A stretch of DNA of 64,000 bases from Kutzneria chonburiensis. Lineage in GTDB: Bacteria > Actinomycetota > Actinomycetes > Mycobacteriales > Pseudonocardiaceae. The notes under the pieces are model-generated. The model had not been told where the DNA came from. It did no database searches and saw only the letters and a list, made by a program, of their open reading frames with translations. The first letter of the stretch is position 1; the number at the start of each line of letters is the position of its first letter. The stretch is from contig NZ_CP097263.1 in assembly GCF_028622115.1 (NCBI RefSeq), positions 372,001-436,000 of the forward strand. The letters run 5' to 3'. The position numbers and the translations under genes were made by a program. This document shows, in pieces, positions 13,805-35,797 of the stretch.

Positions 13805-14545
13805 ATGACCGAGGACCGGTTAGGCGATCAGGTCCGCACCCTGCTGCGAAACTCCGGCCGCGCCCGACCGTTCCGGCGGGGCGAGGTGCTGATCGTGGAG
13901 GGCGCGCCCAGCGACGAGGTGCTGCTGATCGAGACCGGCAAGGTCAAGGTGGTGCTGCACGGCCCCAACGGCGCCGATTCCATTCTCGGCTTCTACGGCG
14001 CCGGCGAGCTGATGGGCGAGATGGGCGTGATGGGGGAGCGGCCGCGCAGTGCCGACGTCATCGCCCGCACGCCCGGCATCGCCCTGCACGTCGACGCGCA
14101 CACCTTCCGCACCCTGCTGCGCGATCACCCGGTGCTGGCCGCCTACGTCACCGACGTGTTGAGCAAGCGGCTGTTCCAGGCCGACCAGCGGCAGCGGCTG
14201 CACGCCTCGTTCGAGGTGTCGGTCCGGGTGGCCAAGCAGCTGTTGAGCTGGGCTCAGTCCTCCGGCGAGGCCGTCGCCGGCGGCGGGCTGCGGGTGAAGG
14301 GCCTGACCCAGCTGGAGATCGCCCAGTTCGTCACCGCCTCGGCCAAGACCGTCGACCACGTGCTCAAGCAGCTGCGCTCGGACAAGCTGCTGGAGACCGG
14401 CCGCCGCAGCTACCTGCTGCCCGATCCGTCGCTGCTGGAACGCTGCCTGGCCGACCCCGAATGGCGGCCCGGTCGGGGCGATGTCTCCCGCTTTTCCGGG
14501 AGACCGGACACCTTCGCCCAACCAGACTCCACACGTGCCTGCTGA
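13805..14545 (+). CDS. Crp/Fnr-family transcriptional regulator
   Basis: A 246-residue regulator. The cyclic-nucleotide-binding beta-roll spans about residues 18-130. Its phosphate-binding cassette region GELMGEMGVMGERPRSADV keeps the GE and RSA positions, so cNMP binding is plausible. A winged helix (LTQLEIAQFVTASAKTVDHV) follows at about 165-185. It begins the two-gene unit inserted between whiA and gap, and its partner, 19 bases downstream, is a nucleotidyl-cyclase-like protein. A regulator able to sense cNMP beside a cyclase suggests a local signalling circuit; that link is inference. Confidence 0.85.
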   Translation: MTEDRLGDQVRTLLRNSGRARPFRRGEVLIVEGAPSDEVLLIETGKVKVVLHGPNGADSILGFYGAGELMGEMGVMGERPRSADVIARTPGIALHVDAHTFRTLLRDHPVLAAYVTDVLSKRLFQADQRQRLHASFEVSVRVAKQLLSWAQSSGEAVAGGGLRVKGLTQLEIAQFVTASAKTVDHVLKQLRSDKLLETGRRSYLLPDPSLLERCLADPEWRPGRGDVSRFSGRPDTFAQPDSTRAC

Positions 14546-14564: not shown

Positions 14565-15326
14565 GTGGAGTCGATCGTCCCCGAAATCCGGACCCTGCTC
14601 GGGGTCGACGTGATCGACTCGGCCCGGACCGCGCCGCACCTGCGGCCGCAGGTGCCGGCGGTGCTGGAGACGCTGCTCTCGGCGGGCATGGCCGCGGTCG
14701 GGATCTCCCGGGACGAGGCCGTGGACGCGCAGTACACCGGCGACGGCTGGCTGTACGCGTTCCCGATCGGGTTGCTGGGCCGGGTGGTCGACCTGGGTCA
14801 GGCGCTGGACGGGATCGTCGCCGAGCACAACAAGTGGAACAAGCTGGAGCTGCGGCTGCGGCTGGCCGTCGACGCCGGGCCGCTGCCCGACACCCAGGGC
14901 TTCCACGCCGCGAACATCGCCCGCGCCCGGCTGCTGGAGGCGCCGGCGTTCAAGCTGCTGGCCCGGGAGTGCATGGCCGCCCGCCCGGACGGCTCGATGA
15001 GCACGGCGATGATCATGTCCGACACCGCGTACCGGACCACCTTCGACGGGGCGTACGCCAAGGTCGCGCGGGCCACCGACTTCGCGTCGCTGGCCGTGAC
15101 CAACAAGGAGTTCACCGCCCGCGCCTGGGTCGCGGTGCCCGGTTTCGACGCCAGGACCCTCGCCGAGATGGCCGAGCAGGACGGCACGGCGGCATCTGCA
15201 CCGGTCGAGGAGAGCGAGCCCACACGCCGCGGCCGTGTGAAGAACACCATCAAATCGAACTCCGGCCACGCCGTGCAGGCCGACTCCATCACCGGCGGCA
15301 TCACCTTCGGCCGCGGCCCCCACTGA
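14565..15326 (+). CDS. Class III nucleotidyl-cyclase-like protein with Gly/Gln-rich C-terminal tag
   Basis: A 253-residue soluble protein. Cyclase-fold marks are VDVIDSARTAPH near residue 14 (first metal-Asp position), YTGDGWLYAFP near 58-68 (the GDG turn with the second metal Asp) and NIARARLLEA near 118, in the place of the N-x3-R transition-state motif. The last ~25 residues are an isolated tail, SGHAVQADSITGGITFG, resembling the short Gly-Gln motif at the N-terminus of the NB-ARC protein at 33704. The GTG at 14565 is fixed by GGAGGAG. It is coupled to the Crp/Fnr gene. Activity, and whether the product would be cAMP, cGMP or another nucleotide, is unknown. Confidence 0.75.
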   Translation: MESIVPEIRTLLGVDVIDSARTAPHLRPQVPAVLETLLSAGMAAVGISRDEAVDAQYTGDGWLYAFPIGLLGRVVDLGQALDGIVAEHNKWNKLELRLRLAVDAGPLPDTQGFHAANIARARLLEAPAFKLLARECMAARPDGSMSTAMIMSDTAYRTTFDGAYAKVARATDFASLAVTNKEFTARAWVAVPGFDARTLAEMAEQDGTAASAPVEESEPTRRGRVKNTIKSNSGHAVQADSITGGITFGRGPH

Positions 15327-33703: not shown

Positions 33704-35797
33704 GTGGCTGAGCCTGCCGATGTGCGCAACGACCTTGGCGGCACGGTGCACGGGCCGGCGTTGCAGATCGGGGCCATGCACGGTGTCGTGATGACCGGCG
33801 CCGCCACGACCACCGAGCGGCCACGGCAACTGCCGTTGGCGATCGGGCAGTTCACCGGGCGCGTGACGTACCTGGAAGCGCTGAACGCACTCGTTCCGGG
33901 CGATGCCGTGGTCATCACCGCGATGGACGGCACCGCCGGCATCGGCAAGACGATGCTGGCGGTGAGCTGGGCGCACAGCGTTCAGGACCGGTTCCCCGGC
34001 GGCACTCTGTTCGCGAACCTGCGTGGCTACGGTCCCGGTGCGCCGGCCACCCCCGAGGAGGTGCTGGACGGCTTCCTCCGTGCGCTCGATCCGGCGTCGG
34101 ACCGGATCCCCGTCGGCGTGGAGGCAAAGGCGGCGCGGTTCCGTTCGTTGCTGTCCGGACGACAGGTGCTGATCGTGCTGGACAACGCCGGTAGCGCGGA
34201 ACAGGTGCGGCCGCTGCTGCCGGGTGAGCCCGGATCGATGGTCGTTGTGACCAGCCGCGACAGCATGCGCGGCTTGGTCGTGACGGAGTCGGCACACCGG
34301 CTGACCGTCGGACTGCTGCCGGAATCCGAGGCGGTGGAACTGGTCGCACGTATCGTCGGACCGGCCCGCGCCGCGCACGAACGGCAGGCCGTGACGTCGC
34401 TGGTCGAGCTGTGCGGACGGTTGCCCCTGGCAGTGCGGATCGCGGCGACCAGGGTCGCCGCGTCGCCGTACAACACGGTCGCCGGTGTCGTGGCCGAACT
34501 CGCCGACGAGCGTGGTCGGCTGGACGTGCTCAGCCCGGACGGTGACGAGCGGGCCGCTGTGCGGGCCGTGCTGGGCTGGTCCTACCGGCGTCTTCCCGAC
34601 GACCAGGCCATTCTGTTCCGCCGCCTGGGTTTGCACCCCGGCCCCGAGTTCAGCGTGCACGCCGCTGCCGTCGTCGCGGGCCTCGAACCGCCGTCGGCGC
34701 GGCGACTCGTCGAGGCCTTGGCTGCGGCCCACCTGATCGAGCCGGTGGCGCCGGACCGCTACCGGTGCCACGACCTGCTCCGTGCCTACGCGGCGGAGCT
34801 GACCGAACAGAACGACAGCCCGGTGGTTCGCCGAGCAGCGATCGCCGCGTTGGCCATGTGGTATGCCCGGATGGCCTGGGAGTGCGACCGCCTGGCCTTT
34901 CCCGGCACTTTCCGGCTGCCGTTCGACGCTCCCTACGTCGGACCGGCGATTGTCGACGGCCTTCGGGCGTTGGACCGGCTCGATACCGAGCGGTCCAATC
35001 TCCGTGCGCTGCTGCACATGGCCGACCGGCACGGTCTGGGCGCGGAGGTTGTGCGTCTGGCCGAGGGCGTGCGGTTTCTCTGGATGAGAGGCACGGTGGA
35101 GGATGCCGTCGAGCTGACCGGTCTCGGGATGCGCGCCGCTCGGCGCGTAGGCGACCGCCTCGCCGAGTTCTGGTTCTGCATCAGGCAGTCGGAGAACCAT
35201 TACCGCGGCCATGACTGGAGCGAGGCAACGGCGCTCGTCGACCGTGCCGCGGAGTTGGCCGTGGGGTTGGCCGATCCCGTGCTTCGGGGCATCGCGTTGG
35301 ACAACCGTGCGTGGCTGCACGTCTATCGGGGCGACTTCGCCGACGCACTCGCATGTGCCCAGCAGGCGCTGTCGCTGGTGCAGGGCAGCGGCCGTTCAGA
35401 GGCCGTCGCCAGAGAGGCTTTGGCCTGGGCGCTCAACGGACTCGGCCGGCATGAGGAAGCCCGTCGCCAGGCCGAACTCGGCCTGGCGTGGCGGCAGGGG
35501 CGGGATCCGATCGGTGCGGCCCAGGCGATGCACCAGGTGGGGGTGGCGTGGCAGGGCCTCGGCGACGACCACAAGGCCATCGACATCCTGCGGGAGGCGA
35601 TCGCCCGCGGCCGGGCCTTTGGTCACCTGGAGGAAGCCGTCGCGGCGCCGCTGATGACCATGGCCGCGTCGTTGCGGCGCGTGGGCCGGGAGGACGAAGC
35701 CGTGGCCTGCTGGCAGGAAGCGGCTGAGTTGTACGACGACTACGGCCGTCCGTGGCACGCGGCACAGGCCCGACAGAGCATCCAGGGCCTCAGCTGA
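33704..35797 (+). CDS. NB-ARC (STAND) ATPase with TPR-like C-terminus and Gly-Gln N-terminal motif
   Basis: A 697-residue STAND protein. Residues about 7-27 carry the short motif LGGTVHGPALQIGAMHGVVM. The NB-ARC core shows Walker A DGTAGIGKTML near residue 76, Walker B VLIVLDNAG near 154, sensor VVVTSRDSMRG, and GLPL-like GRLPLAVRIAATR near 245. A winged-helix region (LGWSYRRLPDDQAILFRRLG) and helical TPR-like repeats (WYARM to the C-terminus) follow. It resembles AfsR-type regulators but lacks the DNA-binding SARP domain. STAND proteins act as ligand-triggered switches in regulation or phage and conflict defence. The GTG start has no strong ribosome binding site. Confidence 0.88.
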   Translation: MAEPADVRNDLGGTVHGPALQIGAMHGVVMTGAATTTERPRQLPLAIGQFTGRVTYLEALNALVPGDAVVITAMDGTAGIGKTMLAVSWAHSVQDRFPGGTLFANLRGYGPGAPATPEEVLDGFLRALDPASDRIPVGVEAKAARFRSLLSGRQVLIVLDNAGSAEQVRPLLPGEPGSMVVVTSRDSMRGLVVTESAHRLTVGLLPESEAVELVARIVGPARAAHERQAVTSLVELCGRLPLAVRIAATRVAASPYNTVAGVVAELADERGRLDVLSPDGDERAAVRAVLGWSYRRLPDDQAILFRRLGLHPGPEFSVHAAAVVAGLEPPSARRLVEALAAAHLIEPVAPDRYRCHDLLRAYAAELTEQNDSPVVRRAAIAALAMWYARMAWECDRLAFPGTFRLPFDAPYVGPAIVDGLRALDRLDTERSNLRALLHMADRHGLGAEVVRLAEGVRFLWMRGTVEDAVELTGLGMRAARRVGDRLAEFWFCIRQSENHYRGHDWSEATALVDRAAELAVGLADPVLRGIALDNRAWLHVYRGDFADALACAQQALSLVQGSGRSEAVAREALAWALNGLGRHEEARRQAELGLAWRQGRDPIGAAQAMHQVGVAWQGLGDDHKAIDILREAIARGRAFGHLEEAVAAPLMTMAASLRRVGREDEAVACWQEAAELYDDYGRPWHAAQARQSIQGLS

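Follow-up and report, generated by a model that had tools for sequence, protein, structure and literature searches.

A peptide tag shared by a class III-like cyclase family and NB-ARC/STAND proteins in Kutzneria chonburiensis, and its candidate role in receptor-to-cyclase signalling

In the BASS systems (Dyrka et al., 2020) a short amyloid motif is found at the N-terminus of NLR receptors and at the C-terminus of effectors, as set out in the main text of PMC7889193. The effectors named in that text and in those of PMC8086366, PMC9815663 and PMC12261475 are the Bell, CHAT and TIR proteins; those linked to bacterial NLRs are presented as putative cell-death or degradative effectors, with a signalling outcome left for exploration (main text of PMC7889193). 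The mammalian RHIM and the fungal PP/HET-s motifs likewise pass a signal from receptor to effector by way of a common short motif (PMC7889193), although they have another sequence and their partners are RIP kinases or HeLo-type cell-death proteins. The locus described here resembles BASS in that the same short motif occurs within one genome at the N-terminus of NLR/STAND proteins and at the C-terminus of candidate effectors. The original prediction had pointed to tags of this sort on actinobacterial STAND and effector proteins, and the tag type is indeed in print for bacterial NLRs (main text of PMC7889193). The locus differs from BASS in having a cyclase and a CRP-family regulator where BASS has Bell, CHAT or TIR, and in that the receptor linked to the relatives of the cyclase is a P-loop protein, at a guess STAND-like, rather than an NB-ARC NLR. 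The adjacency of receptor and effector seen in BASS recurs in 14 genomes with this partner, whereas the two tagged genes of the window, by which we mean the whole 64,000-nucleotide stretch analysed, lie 18 kb apart. None of the main texts of PMC7889193, PMC8086366, PMC9815663, PMC12261475, PMC12881547 and PMC10907252 contains the word 'cyclase', though the original BASS paper may list one. As judged by titles and the starts of abstracts, we found no report of an amyloid-tagged cyclase with a CRP regulator in the open-licence literature, where the coupling of this known kind of motif to such an effector is apparently unreported.

Pycsar systems consist of the PycC cyclase and an effector. The present locus shares with them a class III-related cyclase adjoining a gene with a cyclic-nucleotide-binding domain, and the binding domain of the window CRP matches the PADLOC models PycTIR (E 4.8e-18) and PycC (E 6.1e-10). 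However, the neighbour in Pycsar is a TIR or membrane effector, while here it is a DNA-binding CRP regulator and the cyclase carries a candidate assembly tag. We rejected membership in Pycsar on the basis of this CRP neighbour and of 0 PADLOC matches for three family cyclases at E<=1. Kaur et al. (2020, PMC7159879) also describe cyclase domains of the cNMP type in vWA-MoxR-VMAP and kindred conflict systems, and such domains are mentioned for further systems (Kaur et al., 2021, PMC8195603), and some actinobacterial peptide systems have a linked CRP-like gene (Kaur et al., 2020). In the systems of PMC7159879 the cyclase is fused to the VMAP or vWA components, in contrast to the stand-alone cyclase considered here; the available text of that paper describes neither a stand-alone crp-cyclase-STAND operon nor a tag, and 'amyloid' occurs in it 0 times.

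The crp-cyclase unit and its linked partner gene

The core of the locus comprises the following features:

13805..14545, + strand: CRP/FNR-family regulator with a cNMP-binding domain and a Crp-type HTH (Pfam PF00027, E 3.2e-21; PF13545, E 7.2e-10)
14565..15326, + strand: cyclase-like protein P0001, 253 aa, with a class III-like domain (about residues 1-200), a linker and a C-terminal tag
15231..15311, + strand: C-terminal tag of P0001, GRVKNTIKSNSGHAVQADSITGGITFG (residues 223-249 of 253), supported by family alignment, own-genome profile search and a reversed control

The crp gene is the first of a conserved unit and ends 19 bases before the cyclase gene. By its sequence the product is assigned to the CRP family, with the cNMP domain, its cassette and the Crp-type HTH all recognisable. 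The cassette of a CRP-family cNMP domain is the part that holds the cyclic phosphate. Its GE and Arg are kept in 29 of 29 aligned CRP copies, the Arg appearing as RSA or RTA in 28 of them and as RSS in L086 (loci are given by L numbers). The region upstream of crp showed no CRP-type palindrome or operator. The K. chonburiensis genome has nine places, the one in the window included, that encode CRP-like relatives at E<=1e-3. A paralogue 54% identical to the window CRP lies at 1.199 Mb (L199), flanked by two genes that read like aldo/keto reductases and with no cyclase match there.

The pairing of the two genes is conserved: in 20/20 family loci crp immediately precedes the cyclase and shares its strand, and it lies upstream of it in 13 of the 14 loci L073-L086 (the exception is L083; some genomes are in both locus sets). 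For the distant Streptomyces cyclases, crp is upstream in 7/9, with a gap of about 1 kb in six, and the remaining two lie near a contig end. The window segment 12676-16575 places the crp-cyclase pair between whiA and gap-pgk, as do the corresponding loci of four Kutzneria relatives; a fifth (L051) has gap at a distance of about 6 kb. In the fetched loci of other genera neither whiA nor gap was matched close to the pair.

As a single query, P0001 has no match at E<=1 in Pfam, NCBIfam or PADLOC and 0 matches at E<=1 in the PDB, and the cyclase family as a whole lacks a Pfam, NCBIfam or PADLOC name at credible scores. Searched against the PDB, profile A5 of the cyclase family hits class III cyclases of solved structure, with 5d0g as the best hit (E 1.8e-4), other Ma1120 entries at E 7.5e-4 to 1e-3 and a natriuretic peptide receptor at E 0.01; the narrower profile A4 recovers the same Ma1120 entries at E 0.0011 (5d0g) to 0.023. 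The match is local and weak, and the matching region lies around G-D-G, a place at which the profile alignments give ESQGDG for the 5d0g chain and KSQGDG for the other Ma1120 chains. By this sequence relation, weak as the match is, P0001 appears to be a divergent class III nucleotidyl cyclase. Among 26 cyclase-family proteins, D15, D60, R99, R122, K181, E182 and W188 are invariant (26/26); by analogy with class III enzymes we take D15 and D60 to be metal-binding aspartates and R122 to be the transition-state Arg. Residue 56, which precedes the G of GD by three positions, is E or Q in 22/26 of these proteins. In class III enzymes a Lys at this position is typical of adenylyl cyclases and a Glu of guanylyl cyclases. 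By the same analogy it is possible that the substrate of P0001 is GTP or has another base.

The position corresponding to the Asn of class III cyclases, a role that we assign by analogy, is N in only 5/26 of the family proteins. Since it varies, it is possible that P0001 has a dead nucleotide-binding domain. The domain would then sense or sequester a nucleotide, assembly through the tag would move or expose it, and the CRP would answer to a nucleotide made elsewhere. Such an account is consistent with the weak class III similarity, the variable Asn position, the E or Q found in 22/26 proteins where adenylyl cyclases have Lys, and the inactive cyclase domains described in the text of Kaur et al. 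(2020, PMC7159879) for other conflict systems. It sits less well with the putative metal-binding D15 and D60 and with R122, all invariant in 26/26, with a regulator bearing a cNMP cassette next to the cyclase in 20/20 loci, and with the search of the genome with the Pfam class III models, which found no other class III cyclase at E<=1e-3. We regard a dead domain as rather unlikely and hold that P0001 probably makes a cyclic-nucleotide signal.

In a subset of the loci a third gene directly follows the cyclase (7/20 and 11/14 loci, amounting to 14 distinct genomes), whereas 13/20 family loci lack an adjacent partner gene. Its product has about 660 aa and a P-loop segment resembling GxGTGRT. Pfam gave nSTAND3 at E 0.05 for one of two partners scanned and no match for the other; because of this weak match and the layout, our guess is that the protein is STAND-like. 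Its N-terminal tag is recognised by profile in 12/14 genomes, weakly in L074 and L081; the tag of the L079 partner was seen by eye and that of the L086 partner is divergent. Where the third gene is absent or divergent, no further shared, tagged or NLR-like gene was found downstream by eye (18 loci). In the relatives the linked tagged partner of the cyclase is this STAND-like P-loop protein, with crp upstream of the cyclase, and it is distinct from the NB-ARC protein of the window; the conserved operon is better supported than the pairing of the two window proteins. Weak relatives of the partner (E 1e-12 to 1e-14) also lie downstream of distant cyclase-like genes in Streptomyces (L094, L095), so the arrangement of three genes could predate a single family.

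In K. chonburiensis itself the partner homologue is encoded 2.1 Mb from the window cyclase. Among seven Kutzneria genomes, a partner homologue at E<=1e-30 was detected in three and not in the other four, while the cyclase is present in six of the same seven. Since the STAND-like partner is unlinked or not found, the Kutzneria cyclase is probably served by an unlinked STAND-like partner or by unlinked tagged NLRs. In one relative (G087) the partner homologue is in two pieces in different open frames (L171, L172) and may be decaying.

A tag family at the N-termini of STAND proteins and the C-termini of candidate effectors

Relatives of P0001 at E<=1e-6 were found in 69 of 200 genomes of the taxonomic family; the family alignment consists of the 30 best-scoring fetched proteins, P0001 included, drawn from the 69 genomes with a match. 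These proteins have a common layout, with the domain extending to about residue 200, then a variable linker, then the terminal tag. The tag spans about 26 residues, with the consensus G-x-V-x-N-x-V-x-G-x-M-x-G-V-Q-A-G-x-I-x-G-G-x-x-F-G. Read by eye, it is recognisable in 29/30 aligned proteins, down to about 35% identity, and its central Gln is kept in 27/30. L032 is without a tag of such form, and the Gln is replaced by Met in L006 and by His in L020. Beyond the aligned 30, the L083 cyclase has a short form of the tag, and in L086 (Pseudonocardia acaciae) the central Gln is lost in both the cyclase tag and the partner tag. The tails of the distant Streptomyces relatives (L087-L095) are G/V-rich in other ways and do not match the tag profile.

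We searched the 10.41-Mb, single-contig K. chonburiensis genome with a profile (A2) built from 19 cyclase C-terminal tags, without NB-ARC rows; five divergent tags of A1 and the P0002 row were omitted. It gave 14 matches at E<=10. We took 11 of these as real, all with E<0.2 and the cyclase among them, whose own match is to be expected as its tag is a row of A2; the other three (L044, L045 and L046, E>2) are probably noise and were not counted. Seven of the 11 stand at the N-terminus, borne by four NB-ARC proteins, one NACHT-type protein, one iHD-CE protein and the homologue of the STAND-like partner. The same tags reversed gave three matches in this genome, the best at E 0.9, which speaks against the tag family having arisen by chance or from composition.

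With the P0002 subtype added, a wider profile returned 26 matches at E<=1 in the same genome; 12 of them are rows of the profile itself (A6) by construction, the remaining 14 (L146-L159) are new, and the reversed control pertains to A2 and not to A6 or A7. Eighteen of the 26 sit at the N-terminus of NB-ARC, NACHT, AAA, iHD-CE or STAND-like proteins, three are N-terminal on small or membrane proteins, four are C-terminal (on the cyclase, L141, L152 and L155), and one (L156) was set aside as probable noise. NB-ARC proteins account for 14 of the 26, 13 by Pfam above cut-off and L042 by its likeness to P0002, and for 9 of the 14 new matches. The other N-terminally tagged proteins include one each with a NACHT/NPHP3_N domain, an iHD-CE domain and, below the Pfam cut-offs, an AAA domain, as well as the partner homologue. 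The opposition between a C-terminal tag in one protein and an N-terminal tag in the other, first remarked for the window pair, extends across this wider set, and the searches bear out the suggestion of a tag resembling an assembly module, present at numerous loci and found mostly on switches of the STAND/NB-ARC type. Pfam recognised no CHAT, TIR or protease domain in 20 tagged stretches, the long ones being covered over about 500 residues beginning with the tag. In six of the seven Kutzneria genomes the wider profile has 10 to 20 matches at E<=0.01; the seventh, of 4.7 Mb, has none at that threshold.

The second tagged protein of the window is represented by two features:

33704..35797, + strand: P0002, a 697-aa NLR-like STAND protein with NB-ARC and TPR domains (Pfam NB-ARC, E 6.2e-10; TPR_12, E 2.3e-14)
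33716..33793, + strand: N-terminal tag of P0002, ADVRNDLGGTVHGPALQIGAMHGVVM (residues 5-30), an eroded subtype that is one residue longer

Only P0001 and P0002 match the tag profile convincingly in the window, and no second tagged gene was found near P0002 within it. Both peptides from which the likeness was first noticed are present in the sequence. The one was correctly placed at the C-terminal end of the cyclase; the NB-ARC peptide, LGGTVHGPALQIGAMHGVVM, occupies residues 11-30 and not 7-27. The pattern G.A[VL]Q.[GD].[IM].G matches exactly these two places when all open stretches of at least 60 codons in any of the six reading frames of the window are considered; a shuffled window yields 0.002 matches, a contrast that is overstated as the pattern was drawn from both peptides. 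Scored directly, the two tags reach 23, which is no better than shuffles (p~0.20), and P0002 ranks 20th of the 21 N-terminal tags of its own genome in likeness to the P0001 tag; the best matches for the latter are L142, L039, L042 and L146 (400 shuffles each; p floor 0.0025). The P0002 tag is also absent among the own-genome matches of the cyclase-only profile: it scores 0.5 bits with a profile that leaves P0002 out and is matched once its subtype enters the profile. A direct partnership of P0001 and P0002 is not borne out by the comparison with shuffles. What survives of the original prediction is the tag family, which is real, and not the specific link between the two proteins chosen to represent it.

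P0002 is part of a large NB-ARC repertoire, partly tagged, with 58 matches to it at E<=1e-50 in its own genome. Its four nearest tagged relatives (L107 at 68% identity, L108, L113 and L109) have cleaner tags of the form NDLSGxVxGxVVQxG. An N-terminal tag is present in 8/30 P0002-like loci of Kutzneria genomes, P0002 included, and missing in 22/30. Retention of the tag in close homologues is hence a feature of the cyclase family (29/30) and of the nearest P0002 relatives, and not of most P0002-like proteins.

That the pair does not exceed shuffles would be in keeping with the tag being a mere sticky tail without a signalling role, in which Gly/Gln/His-rich ends are favoured and the likeness is one of composition. 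Yet reversed tags of identical composition reach a best E of only 0.9, the tag alignments have position-specific N, G, Q and G columns, and cognate tags co-vary, as described below; we consider a sticky tail very improbable.

Co-variation of cognate tags and a proposed mechanism

The 14 partner-bearing genomes, taken from L047-L066 and L073-L086 with L079 and L086 included and L094 and L095 omitted, allow each cyclase tag to be compared with the partner tag of its own and of other genomes. Every cyclase was represented by its 45 C-terminal residues and every partner by its 75 N-terminal ones, and these fixed stretches were scored against each other in all combinations. Cognate pairs have a mean score of 68.5 and non-cognate pairs one of 53.6. 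After double-centring, the cognate excess is +13.9, with a permutation sd of 2.7; it is positive in 14/14 pairs, and p=5e-5 is the floor of the 20,000 permutations. The signal persists in smaller sets: with 10 genomes, one per genus by name, the excess is +13.1 (p=5e-5); with 8 genomes, in which no two cyclase domains exceed 57% identity, it stays at +13.7 (p=5e-5); and with 6 genomes it is +10.7 (p=0.0019). The set of 8 drops L053 and L074, the latter ('Nocardia' S-836) having a cyclase domain 78% identical to that of Lentzea, and the set of 6 further drops L060 and L086. An earlier version with 12 pairs and profile-found tags likewise gave p=5e-5. In 18 comparisons of control stretches the excess ranged from -1.1 to +3.0, with 5/18 at p 0.003 to 0.05.

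The likeness of cognate tags is a statistical tendency and falls short of a strict pairing: by raw score the cognate ranks first in 3/14 rows (4/10 in the smaller set), and after centring in 5/14 rows (6/8 in the 8-genome set). Kibdelosporangium offers an example, with NGPMSGLQAN in both the cyclase and the partner tag. If the tags split before the genera did, there would be no reason for likeness within a genome, gene conversion aside, unless matching is required. Because cognate tags co-vary, we infer that they would act by contact of tag with tag, with no third partner.

The tag might alternatively be a docking peptide for a common third protein, such as a chaperone, scaffold or protease adaptor, with both tags fitting the same groove rather than each other. 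Like docking peptides, the tags are terminal, adjoin linkers of variable sequence and accompany domains that are unrelated to one another. However, cognate tags drift together genome by genome, as in Kibdelosporangium, and a third partner would have to drift along with them; nor was a further shared gene recognised adjoining the unit among the downstream ORFs of 18 loci. We judge docking to be unlikely.

With moderate confidence, we favour the reading of the tag as a homotypic, NLR-associated assembly motif of the BASS-like kind, with the cyclase as one of its effectors, feeding the CRP regulator. A tagged STAND/NLR protein would bind a trigger through its C-terminal sensor and oligomerise, and the N-terminal tags of the receptors would serve as nuclei of a cross-beta (amyloid-like) stack. 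The cyclase could join this stack through its own C-terminal tag, whereby the cyclase domains would be crowded and dimerised, as class III enzymes need. The activated cyclase would produce a cyclic nucleotide, and the neighbouring CRP-family regulator would bind it and change transcription, conceivably towards a stress or anti-invader programme. In this chain the cross-beta form, the catalysis, the identity of the nucleotide, the trigger and the outcome are what we infer, and the BASS and RHIM systems serve as the model for the sensor, for the trigger and for what the stack would physically be. More tentatively, and short of an even chance, a prion-like (cross-beta) step might gate a second messenger, with scattered STAND receptors converging on one cyclase and its dedicated CRP.

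A tagged cyclase beside a cNMP-binding regulator would provide an output that can be measured, both as a cyclic nucleotide and as a regulon, and could unite the fields of amyloid signalosomes and nucleotide second messengers. The co-varying cognate tags would constitute natural specificity pairs for cross-seeding. If the proposal is true, amyloid signalling controls gene expression besides cell death.

Further tagged proteins and motifs

An iHD-CE/HD-CE protein at 5.675 Mb of the K. chonburiensis genome (L037; Pfam PF24401, E 1.1e-60) has the N-terminal tag QAHTINGGVHL, which closely resembles those found on other cyclases from Kutzneria. Small proteins of about 130 aa with a C-terminal tag are encoded at 5.653 Mb of the same genome (L152, with no Pfam match at E<=0.1) and at L179 and L187, the latter two with a hydrophobic N-terminal stretch; in size and layout the three recall the Bell effectors described for BASS. 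The cyclases of L020 and L022 have an additional VQIGDGNTQ motif resembling the BASS3 peptide VDLRDAKGVQVGDGNVQINRF given in the text of PMC8086366. This second, BASS3-like motif, VQIGDGNTQHVD, comes after the usual tag region at their C-termini, placing two kinds of motif in one protein.
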